Shown here: piece after piece, positions 7,660 to 20,848 of the stretch
Position numbering within the stretch: position 1 is the first letter of the stretch
Layout of the letters: every line of letters starts with the position of its first letter
Virus record (IMG/VR): IMGVR_UViG_3300019889_000231
Location: 1-23,666 of that record
DNA: 23,666 bases
DNA from: a virus
Direction: 5' to 3' (one strand)
Translations under genes and position numbers: made by a program
The notes under the pieces: model-generated
Databases searched by the model: none
What the model saw: only the letters and a program-made list of their open reading frames with translations
What the model was told of the DNA's origin: nothing

Positions 7660-7914
7660 ATGGGCAAGACAATGGAGTACAGGGGATACACCAGCACCGC
7701 TCGGAAGGGAATGGGTCAAATGAGCGATTACAGTATTGAGCAAATTGCGGACGAGATTCGTCGCCTGCTTGCACTAGATGGCGACAAGGCGGTGCGGATG
7801 AGTCTGCCGGATCTCGAAGCGGGCAAGGATGCTGAGGACATAGAGGCTGAGATCCGCGCCTGCCTGACTCCGGAAGAGAATGCGCGGCTGGTCTTCACTG
7901 CTATGACCAGATAA
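7660..7914 (+). CDS. Small acidic protein of unknown function, 84 aa
   Basis: The ATG at 7660 is preceded by GGAGGAG about 7 nt away, which fixes the start better than the upstream in-frame codon at 7609; a further ATG at 7720 also has a possible site (GGAAGGGA). The C-terminal half (SIEQIADEIRRLLALDGDKAVRMSLPDLEAGKDAEDIEAEIRACLTPEENARL) is helical and acidic. The last 14 nt overlap the end of the convergent PIN toxin gene, so the two transcripts are partly antisense. No family is recognised. Confidence 0.55.
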   Translation: MGKTMEYRGYTSTARKGMGQMSDYSIEQIADEIRRLLALDGDKAVRMSLPDLEAGKDAEDIEAEIRACLTPEENARLVFTAMTR

Positions 7915-8287
7915 CCTTCAGACCCTTGTACTTTTTGAACTGCCGGTCTGAGCCAATCAGGGGTATGTCCTCGGCCAGTGCCGTCGCGATCAATATGCGA
8001 TCAAAGGGGTCACGGTGATGCAATGGCAGATGACACAGCTTGTAGGCGTGATTTGCTTCAAACGGAAGAATGGTGAGGCGAAGATCGCGAATGGCTTGAC
8101 GTATCTCGGCTTCGCCCATCGACGCCTTCTTGATGCTCGTTTTGAGCGCAAGCTCCGTGATGGAAATTACGCTCACGAAGTTGATTGACTCCGCATCCTC
8201 AAGCAATGCTATGACGCGAGGCGGAAGTCGTCCCTCCGCACGATAGGCGTGCACGATGACTTGCGTATCGAGCAGGAAGCGCGGCAT
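7901..8287 (-). CDS. PIN-domain ribonuclease toxin (VapC-like)
   Basis: A 128-residue PIN protein, the toxin of a type II toxin-antitoxin pair. The four acidic positions of the family are present: D7 (LLDTQVIV), E45 (SITELALK), D93 (HHRDPFDRILIATA) and D113 (LIGSDRQF). Length and the PFDRILIATAL motif match the Phd-partnered group of PIN toxins. Such enzymes cut RNA and stop growth when the antitoxin is lost. The ATG overlaps the antitoxin stop by one base (TAATG), so translation is coupled. In a prophage it may help keep the element in the host or act against other phages. Confidence 0.9.
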   Translation of the reverse strand: MPRFLLDTQVIVHAYRAEGRLPPRVIALLEDAESINFVSVISITELALKTSIKKASMGEAEIRQAIRDLRLTILPFEANHAYKLCHLPLHHRDPFDRILIATALAEDIPLIGSDRQFKKYKGLKVIWS

Positions 8288-8535
8288 TAGTAATGCCCCA
8301 TGACGAAGGCGTCCGCTTCCTCGTCCGACATCGGGTCAAGCCAGTGCGGATCAAAGATTTTCACCTTGCCCTTGCCAGTGCCGAACTTCGGCTTGGGCTT
8401 TTCCTGTGGGCGCGATGGCACCAGATCGGCTACCGGCGTGTTGTAGCGACAAATGGTGATGCGCTCTCCCCTGGCCACCCTGGCGAGCAGTTCTTGGAAG
8501 TGCGCCTTGGCGTATGTGGTTTTGACGTTTTCCAT
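8287..8535 (-). CDS. Phd/YefM-type antitoxin
   Basis: An 82-residue antitoxin encoded just before the PIN toxin. Residues 5-45 (KTTYAKAHFQELLARVARGERITICRYNTPVADLVP) are the Phd/YefM DNA-binding fold: a strand, the AKxxFxxLL helix, then RGExIxIxRxxxPVAxLVP. The C-terminal part (PHWLDPMSDEEADAFV) is the likely toxin-neutralising tail, with the DPMSDEEADAF pattern common in antitoxins of PIN toxins. The ATG at 8533-8535 has no ribosome binding site, and a -10 box sits only 6 nt upstream, so the mRNA is probably leaderless. The protein should repress its own promoter. Confidence 0.9.
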   Translation of the reverse strand: MENVKTTYAKAHFQELLARVARGERITICRYNTPVADLVPSRPQEKPKPKFGTGKGKVKIFDPHWLDPMSDEEADAFVMGHY

Positions 8536-9218: not shown

Positions 9219-9758
9219 TCAGAACGGAATTTCCGATTCATCGATCTCCAGCGCGTCACCGGGTACCAGTACCGGCTCCTTCTTCTTCCCCTTGCCCGCC
9301 AGCGCCTTGCCGAAGAGCGCATCCAGTTGCCGCATCTCGCGAGACTCCAGCGGCTTCAGCTCCGGTAGCTTGGCCGTGCGGGCAACAGACCACCGCTCCC
9401 GCATGTTGCCTTCCTGGTCGGCTTCGTGGGTGCAGAGGAAATCGAACGTCTTGCCCACAAACGACTGGTGCTCCGGATGGCCGGGGTCCAGTGCGCCGAA
9501 GGTGGAACCTTCGTACCCCAGAGTCTCCAGCGATGGCACCACGTACTCCACCGTTTTCTCCGTAATTGCCATGTAGATCGACCGCTGGAACTGGTTGCGG
9601 TGCGGAGTGTAGCTGGTGGGGTCGCGAGGATCGGCCACGCCTAATACCCTGATGGTCAAGACGAACTGGAACGTGCCCGTAGCGGCCTTGGTAAGCCCCT
9701 GCTGAAGTACTTCCCCTACGTGAATGCCCTGATCGTAATGCGGTCCCTTTGACGCCAT
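9219..9758 (-). CDS. SSB-like phage protein with acidic DESEIPF tip
   Basis: A 179-residue protein. The body has beta-rich segments (TFQFVLTIRVLGV, RSIYMAITEKTVEYVV, KTFDFLCTHE) compatible with an OB fold, and residues 145-160 are a basic, flexible linker. The last residues DALEIDESEIPF closely match the acidic tip of bacterial SSB (ending DDDIPF), which recruits repair and replication proteins. Together with the neighbouring Sak4-like ATPase this suggests a phage single-strand DNA-binding protein, or one that mimics the SSB tail. I do not recognise the body as a standard SSB, so the assignment rests on the tip and the context. The ATG overlaps the previous stop (TAATG). Confidence 0.6.
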   Translation of the reverse strand: MASKGPHYDQGIHVGEVLQQGLTKAATGTFQFVLTIRVLGVADPRDPTSYTPHRNQFQRSIYMAITEKTVEYVVPSLETLGYEGSTFGALDPGHPEHQSFVGKTFDFLCTHEADQEGNMRERWSVARTAKLPELKPLESREMRQLDALFGKALAGKGKKKEPVLVPGDALEIDESEIPF

Positions 9759-10669
9759 TAGTTGGCCTCCTTTGCAATTTCCGGCTTCGTGTCGATCTTC
9801 TTCTTGGCTTCAGCGAATGCGGCCGAGAGATTCCGGAACGCCTCTACAGGGCTGTCGCCCATCTCGATTTCATCGGGCAGCCCATAGCGGTTCTTCACGT
9901 CGTACACCGGATTCTCTGCGGACGTGTACAGCATCCGGGTGGACATCTGCGCGGCCTTACCCTTCTTCCCCGGCTTGGCCACTCCACCCTTTGCATCGGA
10001 AACCACCACTTCGTAGTCTCCAAACATGGTGGCGTCCAGCCAGCCCTTCACCACTGCCCAGGTGCGGTCGTTCAATTCAGGCACCCACTTGTCGTAGTCA
10101 GCACCCACCGGATTCTTGAAGCCCTTCGTCCTGCCGTGCATCAACAGCAAAATGGTCATGCTCTTCTCCTCACGCAGCCGGTCCAGCTTGTTCAGGAAGA
10201 GCCGCCACGGGGCCAGCGCTACCTCATATCCACGCTTGTATCCCTCGAATCCGCCCTCGCCCCACTCATCGCTGAATTCGACGTGGCAGGTGTGTTCGTG
10301 GCAGAGGCGCTCGGCACCGTTCACCGTATCCAGGCACAGTGTCCGGTACTCGTGGGCTGAGGACAGGAGCAAGTCCAGCGCTGCATCCAGGTCTGCCCAG
10401 TCCTTCAGTTCCGGCAGGTATGGCGTCTCCGGTAGCTGGCCGGCATCGATCAGGGTAAGAAGTCCTGTCTCGCCTCGCGTCATCAGGAAAATGGGCTTGG
10501 GGAAGTAGGCTCCGATGCTGGTCTTCCCGAAACCACCCTTGGCGTACAGGCCGATTCGTTTTGCTTGTGGTTTGCTCTTCGACAGAATGTCCGACAGAGT
10601 GAAGATTCTGGACGGTAGCGAACTGGACCCCGATGGCCTAGGCGCTCTTACCGGTGGCTGCGCATTCAT
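9758..10669 (-). CDS. Sak4-like / AAA_24 phage ATPase
   Basis: A 303-residue RecA-fold NTPase. Walker A is AKGGFGKTS (residues 43-51), followed by the YFPKPIFLMTRGETGLLTL strand; Walker B is YRTLCLDTVNG (108-117). The short core and the lack of RecA's long extensions match the AAA_24 group, which includes the Sak4 single-strand annealing proteins. These proteins pair homologous DNA strands and are known to work with a phage SSB, which fits the next gene. The ATG at 10667-10669 has AAGGAGA 5 nt upstream. Exact activity is inferred from family and context. Confidence 0.75.
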   Translation of the reverse strand: MNAQPPVRAPRPSGSSSLPSRIFTLSDILSKSKPQAKRIGLYAKGGFGKTSIGAYFPKPIFLMTRGETGLLTLIDAGQLPETPYLPELKDWADLDAALDLLLSSAHEYRTLCLDTVNGAERLCHEHTCHVEFSDEWGEGGFEGYKRGYEVALAPWRLFLNKLDRLREEKSMTILLLMHGRTKGFKNPVGADYDKWVPELNDRTWAVVKGWLDATMFGDYEVVVSDAKGGVAKPGKKGKAAQMSTRMLYTSAENPVYDVKNRYGLPDEIEMGDSPVEAFRNLSAAFAEAKKKIDTKPEIAKEAN

Positions 10670-10691: not shown

Positions 10692-10988
10692 TTACGGCGT
10701 CACTAGTCCAAACACTTCGATGGCCGCCTGAAGCCGACGCGTGTAATCCGCATTACGCTTCGGTGCCTGATCTGACCACCTATAGCGATGGGCCGGGAAC
10801 ACTTTTGCCTGATCGATTACGCCCAGCTTCACCAGCCTGAGTGTGTGCATTCTTGCCGTGCGTTCGGCCACGCGAGCGGCAGCGCTTATCTCGCGATTCG
10901 TGAGCCACACATCAGGCCACTCGCGAAGGGCAAGAGCCACCCGAACCTCATGCAGCGAAACTTCACTACGGTCAACGGTACTGTCCAT
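10692..10988 (-). CDS. Winged-helix DNA-binding protein, 98 aa
   Basis: Residues 15-70 fit a winged helix: a helix (EVRVALALREWPDVW), then LTNREISAAARVAERTARMHTLRLVKLGVIDQAKVFPAHRYRW, with a recognition helix followed by a short wing. This resembles ArsR/MarR-type or phage replication-type HTH proteins that ask whether a response to binding is inherited by a following gene. The site GGGAGG precedes the ATG. It lies between the nuclease and the Sak4-like gene and probably regulates the operon; the target is unknown. Confidence 0.65.
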   Translation of the reverse strand: MDSTVDRSEVSLHEVRVALALREWPDVWLTNREISAAARVAERTARMHTLRLVKLGVIDQAKVFPAHRYRWSDQAPKRNADYTRRLQAAIEVFGLVTP

Positions 10989-11005: not shown

Positions 11006-12073
11006 TTACCCAGCTCGCTGTTGCTCCGATTGCAGTCCCAAAAAGTAGACTTCAAGCGACTGATGAAATAGCGTCCCGAAAAAAAGAGCCTCAGACTCTT
11101 CCTCATCCATCGCTTCCAGGCCAACTTCGTACTTCAGGTAGTGGAGTTGCCTACACGTTTGGAACGTCCTGATTCTAGAATTTGTCAGAATGTCCAGACC
11201 GCGCCCTTCGCCCACAGGCAACTCTGGATGGACCCATTCCCTGGTGGCCCATTTTCCCGAATCGATGGTGTCGTGCTTCGAGCACAATCCCAGGAATTTG
11301 CAGGGCCGATTGAATGTAAAACAGGCGCCAGAGTTACGCGGCCAGCGGTTGTTGCGACGTGCGTGCAGGAGATCCTGGCCATGGCCCCACACGTCCCCGG
11401 CATACTCCAACATCTCCGAGTCCAGACGGGGAATCAGGCGACGCTGGTAGTGTCTTTCCGGACGCTCTACGCATACGTCCTCCACCAGTCGGCCGATGTA
11501 CATCATGAGCGTTTCCCGTTCGTGCTCTCTGACGTAGGCTTTGGAGTCTTCATCGAGCGGGGTGCCGAAGTACGCCGCCCCATCGAGTAACCGGGTTACA
11601 TCTTTCTTGAGAAGTAGCTTAGGAGCGATCTGGGGTTTTCTCATGGAATCCCACAGACCATAGTCGTATTTTTCGCCGTTGCACCATTCCAAGAGCAAAT
11701 AATGCGTTGGCTGGCTCTCAACAATAAGCTGCCGCCAGTACGCTCCATTGGGGTCACTGATGTCTTCCGAGGTTGTCTTGTGATCGACGACAACACGATG
11801 CCCGGTGGCCTCTTCGCGGGCCTTCACGTCCAGCTTGCCGGCGATCGAGAAGGACCGGCTCTTCGCTCCCGTCTCCGGATTCCACAGCGGAGCCGTGCGG
11901 ACTGATTCCACCGAATCGATGAGGTAGGGAGCCTGCCTCCAGCGATGGTCATATCCGTACATCATGCCGATGCAGCGGGCGGCAATCAGCCGGGTTTTCT
12001 CGTCTTTGTCCTGGAGGGTTGGGGTCAGAACTTCGATGGCAGCGTGTAGGGGACGATCGCTGATCTCTTTCAT
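11006..12073 (-). CDS. PD-(D/E)XK Fe-S nuclease with permuted order
   Basis: A 355-residue protein of the AddB/Cas4-like nuclease group. The core is IAGKLD82 and VVVD97-H-K99TTSEDI, the PD-(D/E)XK catalytic residues; C251, C258 and C264 (ACFTFNRPCKFLGLC) are three ligands of a 4Fe-4S cluster. In relatives I know, the protein begins with LTxSRxxxFxxC...GxxxHxxLE, the helix with the fourth Cys, and ends at HPEL. Here HPELP is at 282-286 and the would-be N-terminal piece follows it: ILTNSRIRTFQTC (C307) and FGTLFHQSLEVYF (332-344). No such piece precedes the core. The segments look circularly permuted but complete. It should process DNA ends for the recombination system encoded after it. Confidence 0.75.
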   Translation of the reverse strand: MKEISDRPLHAAIEVLTPTLQDKDEKTRLIAARCIGMMYGYDHRWRQAPYLIDSVESVRTAPLWNPETGAKSRSFSIAGKLDVKAREEATGHRVVVDHKTTSEDISDPNGAYWRQLIVESQPTHYLLLEWCNGEKYDYGLWDSMRKPQIAPKLLLKKDVTRLLDGAAYFGTPLDEDSKAYVREHERETLMMYIGRLVEDVCVERPERHYQRRLIPRLDSEMLEYAGDVWGHGQDLLHARRNNRWPRNSGACFTFNRPCKFLGLCSKHDTIDSGKWATREWVHPELPVGEGRGLDILTNSRIRTFQTCRQLHYLKYEVGLEAMDEEESEALFFGTLFHQSLEVYFLGLQSEQQRAG

Positions 12074-12291
12074 TTTCTCTTCCCTGGAACGATATGGGCG
12101 GTAGCGCGTATGAAGCCGAAGTGCCCCAGAACCTTTGGCCCCGGAGGACGCTCCCCTTGGTAGATGTAGTGGAGGTAGGTTCGCGATATTCCGATTTCGG
12201 CAGCGAATTCGGCTGGCGTCCTGTTGCCCTGCTTCCGCTTCAGGAATGCGATGAACTGCCGATCGGTCATGCCAAATAAATAAACTTGCAT
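12070..12291 (-). CDS. Small HTH regulator (Xre/Cro-like)
   Basis: A 73-residue protein (66 if it starts at the second ATG, 12268-12270). Residues 10-55 form a helix-turn-helix: FIAFLKRKQGNRTPAEFAAEIGISRTYLHYIYQGERPPGPKVLGHFGF, the Xre pattern of FAxxxGISxxYLxxIxxGxRxP. It probably represses the divergent promoter region at 12292-12492. The end overlaps the nuclease start as ATGA, so it is the first gene of the recombination operon and may control it. No good ribosome binding site is seen for either start. Confidence 0.8.
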   Translation of the reverse strand: MQVYLFGMTDRQFIAFLKRKQGNRTPAEFAAEIGISRTYLHYIYQGERPPGPKVLGHFGFIRATAHIVPGKRK

Positions 12292-15765: not shown

Positions 15766-16128
15766 GTGGCCCAGAAGATCCTTGTCGTCGATGACGATCC
15801 AGAGGTACGGCTGGCGCTGCAACTTCGCCTGGGGCACAGTGGGTACGTGGTGCTCTATGCCGTCAATGGAGCGAAGGCCATTGCGGATGCGGCGCAATAC
15901 GCGCCTGACTTGATCATCCTCGACATCGGGATGCCCATCGTCGATGGGTGGGCGGTACTGGAGCGGCTACGCGATAGCAAGATCCCGATCATCGTTCTCA
16001 GCGGCATCCACAAGCACGGCAATCGGGAGCGAGCCATGCTGGCCGGGGCCAGGGCCTTTCTCCAGAAACCCTTCGATGCCGGCCTGCTCATGGCAACCAT
16101 CGACTACGCAATAGGGGACAAATCGTGA
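15766..16128 (+). CDS. CheY-like single-domain response regulator
   Basis: A 120-residue protein consisting of only a receiver domain. It has the acidic pair D10-D11 in VVDDDPEV, the phosphoacceptor D53 (LIILDIGMP), S79 (IVLSG) in place of the usual Thr, and K101 (LQKPF). It has all that is needed to take a phosphate from a histidine kinase, and no output domain. The GTG at 15766 follows AGGGG closely. It is 5 nt after a membrane-protein gene and overlaps the holin-like gene as GTGA. A receiver gene in a phage cassette is unusual; it may tap into host signalling. Confidence 0.9.
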   Translation: MAQKILVVDDDPEVRLALQLRLGHSGYVVLYAVNGAKAIADAAQYAPDLIILDIGMPIVDGWAVLERLRDSKIPIIVLSGIHKHGNRERAMLAGARAFLQKPFDAGLLMATIDYAIGDKS

Positions 16129-17574: not shown

Positions 17575-17608
17575 AGCCGGTATCAAGTCCGGCCCGCTGC
17601 CTCAATCC
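17575..17608. repeat. Right repeat copy, part of a dispersed family
   Basis: The right partner of the repeat at 17093. Its later part (CCGCTGCCTCAATCC, 17594-17608) also occurs exactly at 16968-16982. The stretch 17588-17623 matches 15311-15343 with a 3-bp gap and a few mismatches. This copy covers the 3' end of the gene at 17583, so the others may be remnants of that gene's end. Confidence 0.5.
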
Positions 17609-18509
17609 GCACAAACCGTTCCTTCCCCGGCTCCATCCCCGCATGACACTCCCGCTGGTAGACGCACGGGATCGGGAAGTCGCAGGTAGACAACTGCTGG
17701 TCCGGTAGCTCCGTCATGCCGGCCAGCCGCTCCAGCTTCCGCGCTGCCATGTCCCGCAATCTCTGCAATTCCACTTTCCCCGGCACCGGGATTTCCACCT
17801 TGAAACACACATCGCGAAGCACATCATCGTCCAGCATGGTCTGGAGCCACACCATGCGATCGATCTCGGCGCGGTCCTCCCTCCAGATGCGCTCCCAGGT
17901 GTCCCTGAAGTCTTCCGTGGTGGTGTGCTTCACCTTGCGGAATCGCAGCTTGTGATTCGTGGGATGGAGTAGCCCTTTCGTCCAGGGAGAATGGCGCCTG
18001 CCATCGCGCTGCACTCCCAGAATCAGGACCACCTGCTGCATCGGCATCTCGTAGGCCGCCACTTCTCCCAGCGAGTACCAGGAGCGGATCTCGGAGTAGT
18101 GACGATCGTCAGACCAGGAAGAAGCGAGCACGACCCTGCGTAGACGCGTTCCAGAGGGGTCAAGAAACGCTCCGGAGGTCCATCCTGTACTCAGAGGCTC
18201 CGGACGTGTCCACGGCTCTTCTCCGGGCTTCCTGATGGCGCTGGAGGTGATGTCAGCCAGGCAACTGTGATGCACGGCAGAATCGTAGATCTGATGCGAA
18301 TTGGTCTGCATCCCACGGTCCTTGGCGAGTTGCATGATCTCTTCGCCAGCCACCTCGCCAAAGTCGGTACGTTCGGCTTCCGTCACCGCGGCGGCGATCG
18401 CAGCCTGCAACATCTGTGTGCCATCCAGTCTGATGCGCTCCCAGTCGCGACCCCAGTACGCTCTTCTTTGGCACTGCTCGTAAGCGGATAGCAGGGATGC
18501 GGTGCTCAC
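17583..18509 (-). CDS. Fe-S nuclease-like phage protein, degenerate PD-(D/E)XK
   Basis: A 308-residue protein with the Cas4/AddB cysteine layout: one Cys near the N-terminus (LLSAYEQC13QRRAYW) and three at the C-terminus (C276, C282, C288 in TCDFPIPCVYQREC). The N-terminal SxxxxYxxCxRxAYW helix is also typical. The middle (SEIRSWYSLGEVAAYEMPMQQVVLILG) resembles the nuclease strand and the Q-x-x-Y-like helix, but the expected ExK is EIR, so catalysis may be lost or altered. The GTG overlaps the stop of the gene before as GTGA. It is beside the virion genes and may be an end-processing or packaging factor. The family call is inference. Confidence 0.5.
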   Translation of the reverse strand: MSTASLLSAYEQCQRRAYWGRDWERIRLDGTQMLQAAIAAAVTEAERTDFGEVAGEEIMQLAKDRGMQTNSHQIYDSAVHHSCLADITSSAIRKPGEEPWTRPEPLSTGWTSGAFLDPSGTRLRRVVLASSWSDDRHYSEIRSWYSLGEVAAYEMPMQQVVLILGVQRDGRRHSPWTKGLLHPTNHKLRFRKVKHTTTEDFRDTWERIWREDRAEIDRMVWLQTMLDDDVLRDVCFKVEIPVPGKVELQRLRDMAARKLERLAGMTELPDQQLSTCDFPIPCVYQRECHAGMEPGKERFVRIEAAGRT

Positions 18510-20848
18510 TGTGGTGCGGTTGATCCTGTCTCGATATCAAAGTGGGGCCTCAAGAGGTCTCTGGCTTCTTTGCGATTCTGCACCGGCTGATTCCCGACAG
18601 AGCCTGCTGCAAGAAACGCCGCTATCGCCGGAGAAACAGGAATGCCCTTCGCCTGCGCTTCCTTTGCTATCGCAGAGATGCTGCTGATAATCGTCACACC
18701 ATCCGCGCCGGGAATCTTTCTGAGCGCTGCCAGTTCTCCAGGAGGCGGCTGCGAAAGAAATTTCACTACGCGTGGATTCTCCAGAACCTTCTGCGCAAAC
18801 GCCTTGCCGCCCACATAGCTAGCCGCTCCAGCACGAAACACTACCGAGTGGCCGCCCCCATGACCAAGCACGTGCATGATCTGACCCACGATTGGCTCAA
18901 GGATTGCCGAAGAGGTCAGAATAGCGGCATCGTAGCCGGTGAAACCCCATGCCCTGGCACGCTTGTAAATCGCTTCTTCCCGTAAAGCTACTGTGTCTAC
19001 CGTGGGCTTCTCTATTGGCGTCAACTCGGGATTCGAAGGCCGTCCTTTCATCTTCGGCGGGTCCGGCAACTTTACCTGCGGCGCCCGCGGGTCCGGCGTA
19101 TCGACTGGAGGTTTCGGTAACGGCTTTAGTCCGGCACGCAACCTTTCTTCAGTCGGCATTGCCTTCAGCTTCGCCCGTGCCGCCACTACCCCCTTGTAGT
19201 CCTCAACCAGCGAAGGATCGTGCTTGGCTGCGGCATCCAGCCGCGCCTGCTCCTGTCGCTCCGTTACCGCATCCGCGTTAGCGTCTCCCTTGCGCTCACC
19301 CATCACGGTACGACGCGGAGTCCGCTCTTTCCCAAACGCTTCCATGTATTCGCGGGTCGCCTTCACGCCTCTTTCCAACTCAGGCGCGATGCCCAGTTCA
19401 ATCGCCCCTCTCGTTCGAGCCGCATTGAGCGACTTCAACACCTGTTTCATCTCTCCCAGCTTCACGCCTTCATACTTGCCGTCCGCGATGTTCTTTCCAA
19501 TAATCGACGTGGCGCGATGAATGTCTTCGAGCGAGGTCTTGACCCCTTTTTGGGGATCGAAGTCGATAGGCTCTGGTTCGAAGCCGTTGGACGCGGCAAT
19601 CTCGTCAATCTTGGCGCGACGTTCGGCTGGCAACTCCCAATAGTCGCCCTTGTAACCCTGGCTCTGCATAATCGCGGCCCGATCCTGCGCGTACAGGGAA
19701 TCTGGTGCTGCATCTTCCGCCGATGCGGTGATGTGTCGTAGCTCGCCGGCCGCTTCGGAATTGCGAGCGCTGATCTTTTCCAGATCCCCTGCAAGCCGAT
19801 CCACATCCACCGGAGTCTTTGCCTTCTCATGAAACGGTTCCCACTCCTGGTCCGTCGCCTTCTTCACGCTGGCTGCGGTGGCGTCTTCCTTCGTGAAGTA
19901 CGCATCCGTCTTTGCCTTCAGGTCGGCCTCTGTCTGCCGGCGAAGATCAAGCGTCTGCTCTGCGCCCTGGTTCAACTCCTGCACGCCCTGGTGTTCGGTC
20001 GCGTGAGTATCGACGGCCTCTTTGTTCTGCTGACGCACCCTGCCTACAGCCTCCTGGTGCGTCGCGGCCGCCTCCTGCTGTGCCTCCAGAGTGTCGTAGG
20101 CGTGCTCCATGTTCGCTTCCTCGTTACCCCGCGTAGCCTCGCGGATCGAGTCTGCGTGGCCTTCGACTGCCTGCCGGTTCTTCACACTTGCTGCCTGAGC
20201 AGTTTCATTCCCCTTCCTTACAGCGCCACGCACCTCATCAGCCACCACACCCCTGCCAGCACCGGCAATCACCTGCCCTGTACCCCGGAGATTGTTGGTG
20301 GCCACTCTACGGAAGTTCTTAATAGTCTTGCCTGCTGTTGCCCCGAGGACCGCTTGACCAACAAAGTTGCCGGTCACATAGGCGGGATGGTCAATCGCAA
20401 ATTGACCCTGCTCCGCCAACTCCTGCGTACCTTTCAGGTTTGGAACAGGCACCGGGATTCCACCCACGTTGCGATACGTCGGCATCACGTTCCGTATTTG
20501 CTTCAACAGTCCGGTTGCAAAAGATTCAATTGGATGCGCCAGCACTGCCTCGCCCGCCTGGGCGATACCCGTTGCAAACTGCTCAAGCTTGCCACTGAAA
20601 TCGTGCCGGTCTTCCTTGGCCCCCGGAGCAACGGACGCGTCCATCTTTCCCTGCACGCCTGCAACCTGTGCCCGCATATTCGCAATGAATCCGGGCGGCT
20701 TGGTGGCAGTGAGGTCTACAGAGTCCGCATAATTCGGATACTTGTCCAACACCTTCCTGCCGATCTCCTCATCGGACATAGAGCCGTACTGGGGATACTT
20801 GGTCTTGATCTTCTGACCGAACTGCGAGAGAGACATTTTGTCGGGCAC
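18506..20848 (-). CDS. Large virion-associated protein, 780 aa
   Basis: The N-terminus (LSQFGQKIKTKYPQYGSMSDEEIGRKVLDKYPNYADSVD) is a short repeat-like motif (IKxKYPxYxxxxDxxIxxKVLxKYPxY) found at the start of many phage virion and ejection proteins. Residues 200-340 are Ala/Glu/Gln-rich and helical, probably a coiled coil. Residues 620-760 hold several weakly hydrophobic Gly/Ala helices (DAAILTSSAILEPIVGQIM, ITIISSISAIAKEAQA-like). A role as internal or ejection protein that enters the cell with DNA is likely but inferred. The GTG at 20846-20848 has GGAG 8 nt upstream; an ATG four codons later lacks one. Confidence 0.55.
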   Translation of the reverse strand: MPDKMSLSQFGQKIKTKYPQYGSMSDEEIGRKVLDKYPNYADSVDLTATKPPGFIANMRAQVAGVQGKMDASVAPGAKEDRHDFSGKLEQFATGIAQAGEAVLAHPIESFATGLLKQIRNVMPTYRNVGGIPVPVPNLKGTQELAEQGQFAIDHPAYVTGNFVGQAVLGATAGKTIKNFRRVATNNLRGTGQVIAGAGRGVVADEVRGAVRKGNETAQAASVKNRQAVEGHADSIREATRGNEEANMEHAYDTLEAQQEAAATHQEAVGRVRQQNKEAVDTHATEHQGVQELNQGAEQTLDLRRQTEADLKAKTDAYFTKEDATAASVKKATDQEWEPFHEKAKTPVDVDRLAGDLEKISARNSEAAGELRHITASAEDAAPDSLYAQDRAAIMQSQGYKGDYWELPAERRAKIDEIAASNGFEPEPIDFDPQKGVKTSLEDIHRATSIIGKNIADGKYEGVKLGEMKQVLKSLNAARTRGAIELGIAPELERGVKATREYMEAFGKERTPRRTVMGERKGDANADAVTERQEQARLDAAAKHDPSLVEDYKGVVAARAKLKAMPTEERLRAGLKPLPKPPVDTPDPRAPQVKLPDPPKMKGRPSNPELTPIEKPTVDTVALREEAIYKRARAWGFTGYDAAILTSSAILEPIVGQIMHVLGHGGGHSVVFRAGAASYVGGKAFAQKVLENPRVVKFLSQPPPGELAALRKIPGADGVTIISSISAIAKEAQAKGIPVSPAIAAFLAAGSVGNQPVQNRKEARDLLRPHFDIETGSTAPQ

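Follow-up and report, generated by a model that had tools for sequence, protein, structure and literature searches.

The putative exonuclease locus

The window, a stretch of 23,666 nucleotides of viral DNA (IMG/VR record IMGVR_UViG_3300019889_000231), carries on its minus strand a putative exonuclease gene that is followed by genes for a Sak4-like ATPase and a likely single-strand DNA-binding protein (SSB). The genes at the locus are, in the direction of reading:

12070..12291, minus strand: small helix-turn-helix (HTH) protein upstream of the nuclease, with a match to HTH_3; the last codon of this gene and the first of the nuclease gene overlap (ATGA)
11006..12073, minus strand: gene of 355 codons and a stop for a putative circularly permuted exonuclease of the four-cysteine PD-(D/E)XK type (Cas4/AddB-like), from profiles and an AlphaFold2 model
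10692..10988, minus strand: small HTH-like protein between the exonuclease and Sak4, with only weak PHROG and Pfam HTH matches
9758..10669, minus strand: Sak4-like ssDNA-annealing ATPase (AAA_24; phrog_124 E 7.6e-26, PF13479 E 6.8e-26)
9219..9758, minus strand: likely phage SSB, from synteny and similarity with the 'single strand DNA binding protein' of the Tunturi phages, and with an acidic tail (ESEIPF)

A single unbroken ORF of 355 aa spans positions 11006-12073 on the minus strand, the plus strand being closed. Since the stop of the HTH gene overlaps the start of the nuclease gene, a hidden N-terminal extension is unlikely and the N-terminus appears well fixed. On the other side, 17 bases separate the nuclease stop from the start of the HTH-like gene, after which comes the Sak4-like ATPase. 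The candidate SSB gave no Pfam or PHROG match with its own sequence. The other genes of the record are those of a phage, including RusA, an HNH nuclease, a C5 methyltransferase, a primase/helicase and a tyrosine recombinase.

Several other genes in the window deserve mention. A PIN-domain toxin with a Phd/YefM-like antitoxin (7901-8535, minus strand) lies close to an endonuclease VII-like gene. On the plus strand, opposite to the nuclease, positions 15766-16128 encode a lone response-regulator receiver domain (PF00072, E 5.8e-25), which is odd in a phage and may be host-derived. Finally, a 308-aa protein without a family match (17583-18509, minus strand) has an N-terminus (LLSAYEQCQRRAYW) and a C-terminus (CDFPIPCVYQREC) that resemble the staple of a natural-order four-cysteine nuclease, with no clear catalytic core between them. 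It is preceded by a 780-aa ORF (18506-20848), and Tunturi_2 gp39, an annotated 'exonuclease' to which it has a weak similarity (E 0.013), likewise follows large virion-type genes.

Order of the core and the N-terminal segment

The initial annotation proposed that the protein starts at the nuclease core, runs to the HPEL that normally ends the chain and then continues with the segment that is usually N-terminal. This order was borne out by PF12705 and phrog_1218, profiles from two independent libraries, both of which matched as two swapped stretches. Three parts can be told apart:

11216..12073, minus strand: residues 1-286, the core (D82, D97-H98-K99, Q121-Y125) with C251, C258 and C264 and the natural C-terminal HPEL (phrog_1218, hhalign)
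11189..11218, minus strand: residues 286-295, a new linker with the natural C-terminal HPEL on one side and the natural N-terminal LTNS on the other, from the junction alignment
11009..11215, minus strand: residues 287-355, the moved natural N-terminal segment with C307 and the motif-I histidine H337 (PF12705, hhalign)

The match to Pfam PF12705 (E 3.9e-11, above the cut-off of the family) placed residues 297-346 at positions 3-51, the start of the profile, and residues 59-128 at positions 120-168; the moved segment as a whole was assigned to positions 3-54 (E 2.5e-8). In the match to phrog_1218 (E 5.7e-19), residues 19-266 fell on positions 85-331, and the tail alone, aligned separately as had been suggested at the outset, fell on positions 7-60 (E 3e-9), the protein being non-collinear with that profile. 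When the permuted family was compared by hhalign with the natural-order family, the core (260 columns, E 3e-50) and the tail (58 columns, E 6e-15) aligned in swapped order, values that are far from chance, while rotation of the permuted family in silico gave a single collinear alignment of 334 columns (E 3e-65). When the comparison was limited to distant relatives of natural order, 211 and 57 columns became 300 on rotation. These comparisons support the reading of the window protein as a circular permutation relative to its own superfamily.

The junction was compared with L105, a relative of ordinary order that aligns with phrog_1218 in one collinear stretch (residues 2-353 to positions 5-354). 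L105 begins with MSSLPILTTSRQS and ends with VHPELADQASAA, and the junction of the window protein, VHPELPVGEGRGLDILTNSR, is the natural end fused to the natural start. The linker from HPEL to LTxS has 8-19 residues over the 66 permuted relatives described below, and the junction leaves both natural ends almost intact. The end of the permuted tail (SLEVYFLGLQSEQQRAG) and the new start (MKEISDRPLHAAIEVL) both fall inside a loop of L105 (LGLEAWWKTVGGLQTLAAGTVPLDAALAAM), which follows the motif-I helix and varies in length among natural-order relatives.

AlphaFold2 models were obtained for the window protein (pLDDT 94.6, pTM 0.90) and for L105 (pLDDT 91.9, pTM 0.87). In L105 the elements run H9-17, H19-27, E30-32 and H37-56, then H82-99, E106-120, E127-143, E149-157 and onwards, and in the window protein H25-45, E50-64, E71-87, E93-101 and onwards, then H298-306, H308-317, E319-321 and H328-354; as modelled, the second order is a rotation of the first. 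The modelled permuted core has the RecB-like fold and aligns over 180 residues with AdnA (Z 9.7, rmsd 3.0 A) and also with the Argonaute-associated ACE1 (Z 8.1). In sequential alignment, residues 6-266 of the permuted model fell on residues 840-1039 of the AdnA chain, whereas residues 1-332 of the L105 model fell on 790-1039 (Z 16.2); the ACE1 alignment began at chain residue 73 with the permuted model and at residue 2 with L105. Thus the N-terminal 50-70 residues of the known nucleases are left unmatched in sequence order by the permuted model, as is predicted of a sequential aligner once the first 60-70 residues or so have been moved, and the models suggest that the tail would take the place of the natural N-terminal helices.

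A Foldseek search of the PDB with the permuted model returned nothing at E under 0.001, as is to be expected of a sequential aligner given a permuted chain. In profile searches of the PDB the natural-order profile found nucleases and the permuted profile found none, which implies that permuted enzymes are under-reported by sequential searches, whether with profiles or with structures. Compared by sequence with the PDB, the permuted protein matched designed alphaRep proteins (residues 11-41, HEAT-like), judged to be a chance likeness of a helix pair, and had beyond these one weak unrelated match.

The tail might instead serve a neighbouring subunit in a domain-swapped oligomer and complete the active site and cluster there, given that it is linked to the core by so few residues and that its end is free. 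Yet the tail is modelled with very high confidence in the monomer (block means of about 97), and no swap is needed for the parts to meet within one chain, since in ordinary members the first cysteine and the last three lie at one metal cluster, where the chain ends thus come together (PMC4176176). We regard such a swap as improbable.

Distribution and origin of the permuted order

Successive profile scans of viral contigs covered the best 80 of 115 relatives of the permuted alignment, and the order in each ORF was assigned by separate core and tail models. At least 66 distinct viral sequences from many samples had the permuted order, and at least 27 distinct relatives had the ordinary one. The initial annotation held the order to be unusual, which applies to the wider family, where the natural order is still the form, but does not extend to the close homologues (35-58% identity), which were permuted without exception. 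The permuted order has thus become fixed throughout a clade of phages. No relatives were found on plasmids or, with a few short patterns that make for weak evidence, on contigs of bacterial genomes.

The same permuted order and neighbours were found in gp59 of Tunturi_1 and gp56 of Tunturi_2 (51-52% identity, with 96% of the length aligned), which have no difference in architecture from the window protein. Both phages are complete isolate genomes (PP885685, PP887698) from the Acidobacteriota host genus Tunturiibacter; the proteins were deposited as plain 'exonuclease', and PMC11924767 is silent on permutation. Among predicted viral structures in BFVD, UniProt A0A6J5NSY1 of an uncultured Caudovirales phage, labelled just 'PD-(D/E)XK nuclease superfamily', matched the window model sequentially over its full length (TM 0.78/0.81, 352 columns) and is most likely another permuted member. 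The second-best viral match, A0A6J5MFE0 (280 aa; TM 0.55/0.68, 365 columns), might be a permuted relative of smaller size.

The ordinary order was found in actinophages such as Lauer, Muddy and FF47 and in a set of viral contigs (L105/L106, L102-L104, L108, L066) whose cores are as similar (E about 1e-45 to 1e-65) as those of the divergent permuted members and which mostly share the Sak4 context of the permuted clade. Two permuted genes (L045:3881-5263 and L107:1524-2624) have an insert, KIVLx..GxRV.., in common with natural-order L105, L106 and L108, and that of L045 also contains a CxxCxGxG-like cysteine motif.

In a tree built from the alignment after rotation, all permuted rows but L107 grouped together, and at most two changes of order were required. 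Two independent origins could account for the position of L107, a long branch that adjoins the natural-order group when the tree is unconstrained. Constraining the permuted rows to one clade gave a higher likelihood and was not rejected (p-AU 0.758), and one origin of the permutation is the simplest reading. Because the junction is an exact end-to-end one, we infer a route by duplication and fusion: the whole gene would have been duplicated in tandem and fused once, in an ancestor of the phage clade, joining the natural C-terminus in frame to the natural N-terminus, after which the first copy would have lost its 5' part and the second its 3' part, opening the new ends in the variable loop behind the motif-I helix. 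Joining the natural ends would cost little, since the metal cluster already brings them together.

A six-frame look, with lax thresholds, at the sequences on either side of the 66 permuted genes uncovered no upstream N-terminal remnant, no downstream core remnant and no duplication intermediate, which agrees with the original observation that no N-terminal copy lies upstream and no second core downstream. Phage genomes are mosaic, and a nuclease lacking its own N-terminal segment might have gained a homologous one at its C-terminus from another nuclease gene; at about 58 columns the tail is so short that its ancestry is hard to place, and its profile also strongly finds the distant DSL-LC01. 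However, one and the same natural-order sister group scores higher than distant groups do, both with the tail (113 against 79) and with the core (360 against 160), the near-intact ends at the junction argue against such a fusion, and the flanks hold neither donor nor remnant. We consider it a shade less probable even than the domain swap.

The four cluster cysteines and the catalytic residues had been read as all present in a new order, and the ten were indeed located in the window protein (C251, C258, C264, C307, H337, D82, D97, K99, Q121 and Y125). They include the RecB-like motifs, namely the motif-I histidine (H337), GxxD (D82), (D/E)xK (D97-H98-K99) and QxxxY (Q121-Y125). All four cysteines were invariant in 66/66 permuted rows, and the catalytic residues were conserved in essentially all of them, the exceptions being a D/E exchange at D97 and a few gaps, which most likely reflect truncated contigs. 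A metal cluster, either Fe-S or Zn, and nuclease activity are predicted from these residues; in a related protein of E. rectale (3L0A) zinc is bound, not iron (PMC3466216). It is known that PD-(D/E)XK members can lose activity, as in the RecC domain (PMC1185551), and the permuted proteins might have kept fold and cysteines for a use other than cleavage. The conservation of D82, D97/E, K99, Q121, Y125 and H337 speaks against this, as does a PF12705 scan, in which the exonuclease was the sole match in both complete Tunturi genomes and had no second in the 23.7-kb record, and we think an inactive relative very improbable. That mis-joined contigs or a wrong frame created the order, as might be feared with a metagenomic virus record, can be dismissed, given the uninterrupted frame, the 66 distinct sequences and the recurrence of the order in the two isolate genomes.

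Predicted function and relation to known nucleases

Sak4 lay downstream of the nuclease in 53 of the 56 permuted loci with room for it and in 24 of 26 such natural-order loci, and an SSB-like gene followed in 56/56 permuted loci with room. Sak4 anneals single strands, aided by its own SSB (PMC5928155), and the Cas4 protein Sso0001 was shown to be a 5'-3' ssDNA exonuclease (PMC3466216). This context and these activities suggest a role in resecting the ends of phage DNA for recombination by Sak4 and SSB, and within the module the gene product most likely acts as the exonuclease that resects ends. It would chew back the 5' ends of the phage DNA, a polarity that is itself deduced, so that SSB and Sak4 would be supplied with 3' single strands. 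In the permuted chain the metal cluster would staple the tail to the core, as it ordinarily staples the N- to the C-terminus. Taken as a whole, we find it very probable that the gene encodes a permuted four-cysteine nuclease of the RecB/Cas4/AddB kind that would have arisen by a single duplication and fusion and would resect DNA ends for Sak4 and SSB.

Natural circular permutations with both orders in close relatives and a shared gene neighbourhood are uncommon. Whether the main job of the metal staple is to hold the chain ends becomes testable here, as the ends are covalently joined and the four cysteines are still invariant. It is rather unlikely, though worth considering, that the single ancient permutation fixed in this large and diverse phage clade also changed how the enzyme works; if so, the basis would be that free ends now lie beside the catalytic motif-I helix and that a covalent bond replaces the two free ends at the cluster. 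Stability that no longer depends on the cluster, active sites formed by domain swapping or a tail newly used for docking Sak4/SSB would be examples of such a change.

A limited body of open-access literature (including PMC4176176, PMC5704561, PMC3466216, PMC7824862 and PMC1185551) held no precedent for a permuted four-cysteine nuclease of the Cas4/AddB type, and a permutation elsewhere in the PD-(D/E)XK superfamily may already have been mentioned. The closest known enzymes are the phrog_1218 exonucleases (Gordonia phage Lauer gp39, those of Mycobacterium phages Muddy and FF47, and the IMG/VR loci L105 and L066), which have the same motifs, four cysteines and length and, like the window gene, sit before Sak4 and SSB; in these the first cysteine and motif I come first, whereas in the window protein both come last. 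The nuclease domains of Cas4 (SSO0001, Pcal_0546), ACE1, AddB, AdnA/AdnB and Dna2 share the RecB-like fold and motifs, and Cas4 and AddB also have the four-cysteine staple. As for membership in CRISPR Cas4, PADLOC gave no match for the protein, no Cas model matched among the neighbours tested, and the gene is flanked by HTH, Sak4 and SSB genes rather than by cas genes. The canonical layout of Cas4 is one N-terminal and three C-terminal cysteines (PMC4176176, PMC3466216), and Cas4 and AddB alike carry the first cysteine on the N-terminal side and the other three on the C-terminal side without permutation. Unlike this canon of the iron staple, the window protein has three cysteines first and the fourth in its C-terminal tail, and it differs likewise from the matches to Cas4, ACE1, AddB, AdnA/AdnB and Dna2 in that these start at the N-terminal segment and follow the natural order. 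The kind of enzyme is known; what is new is its permuted architecture, a stable structural variant shared across a clade.
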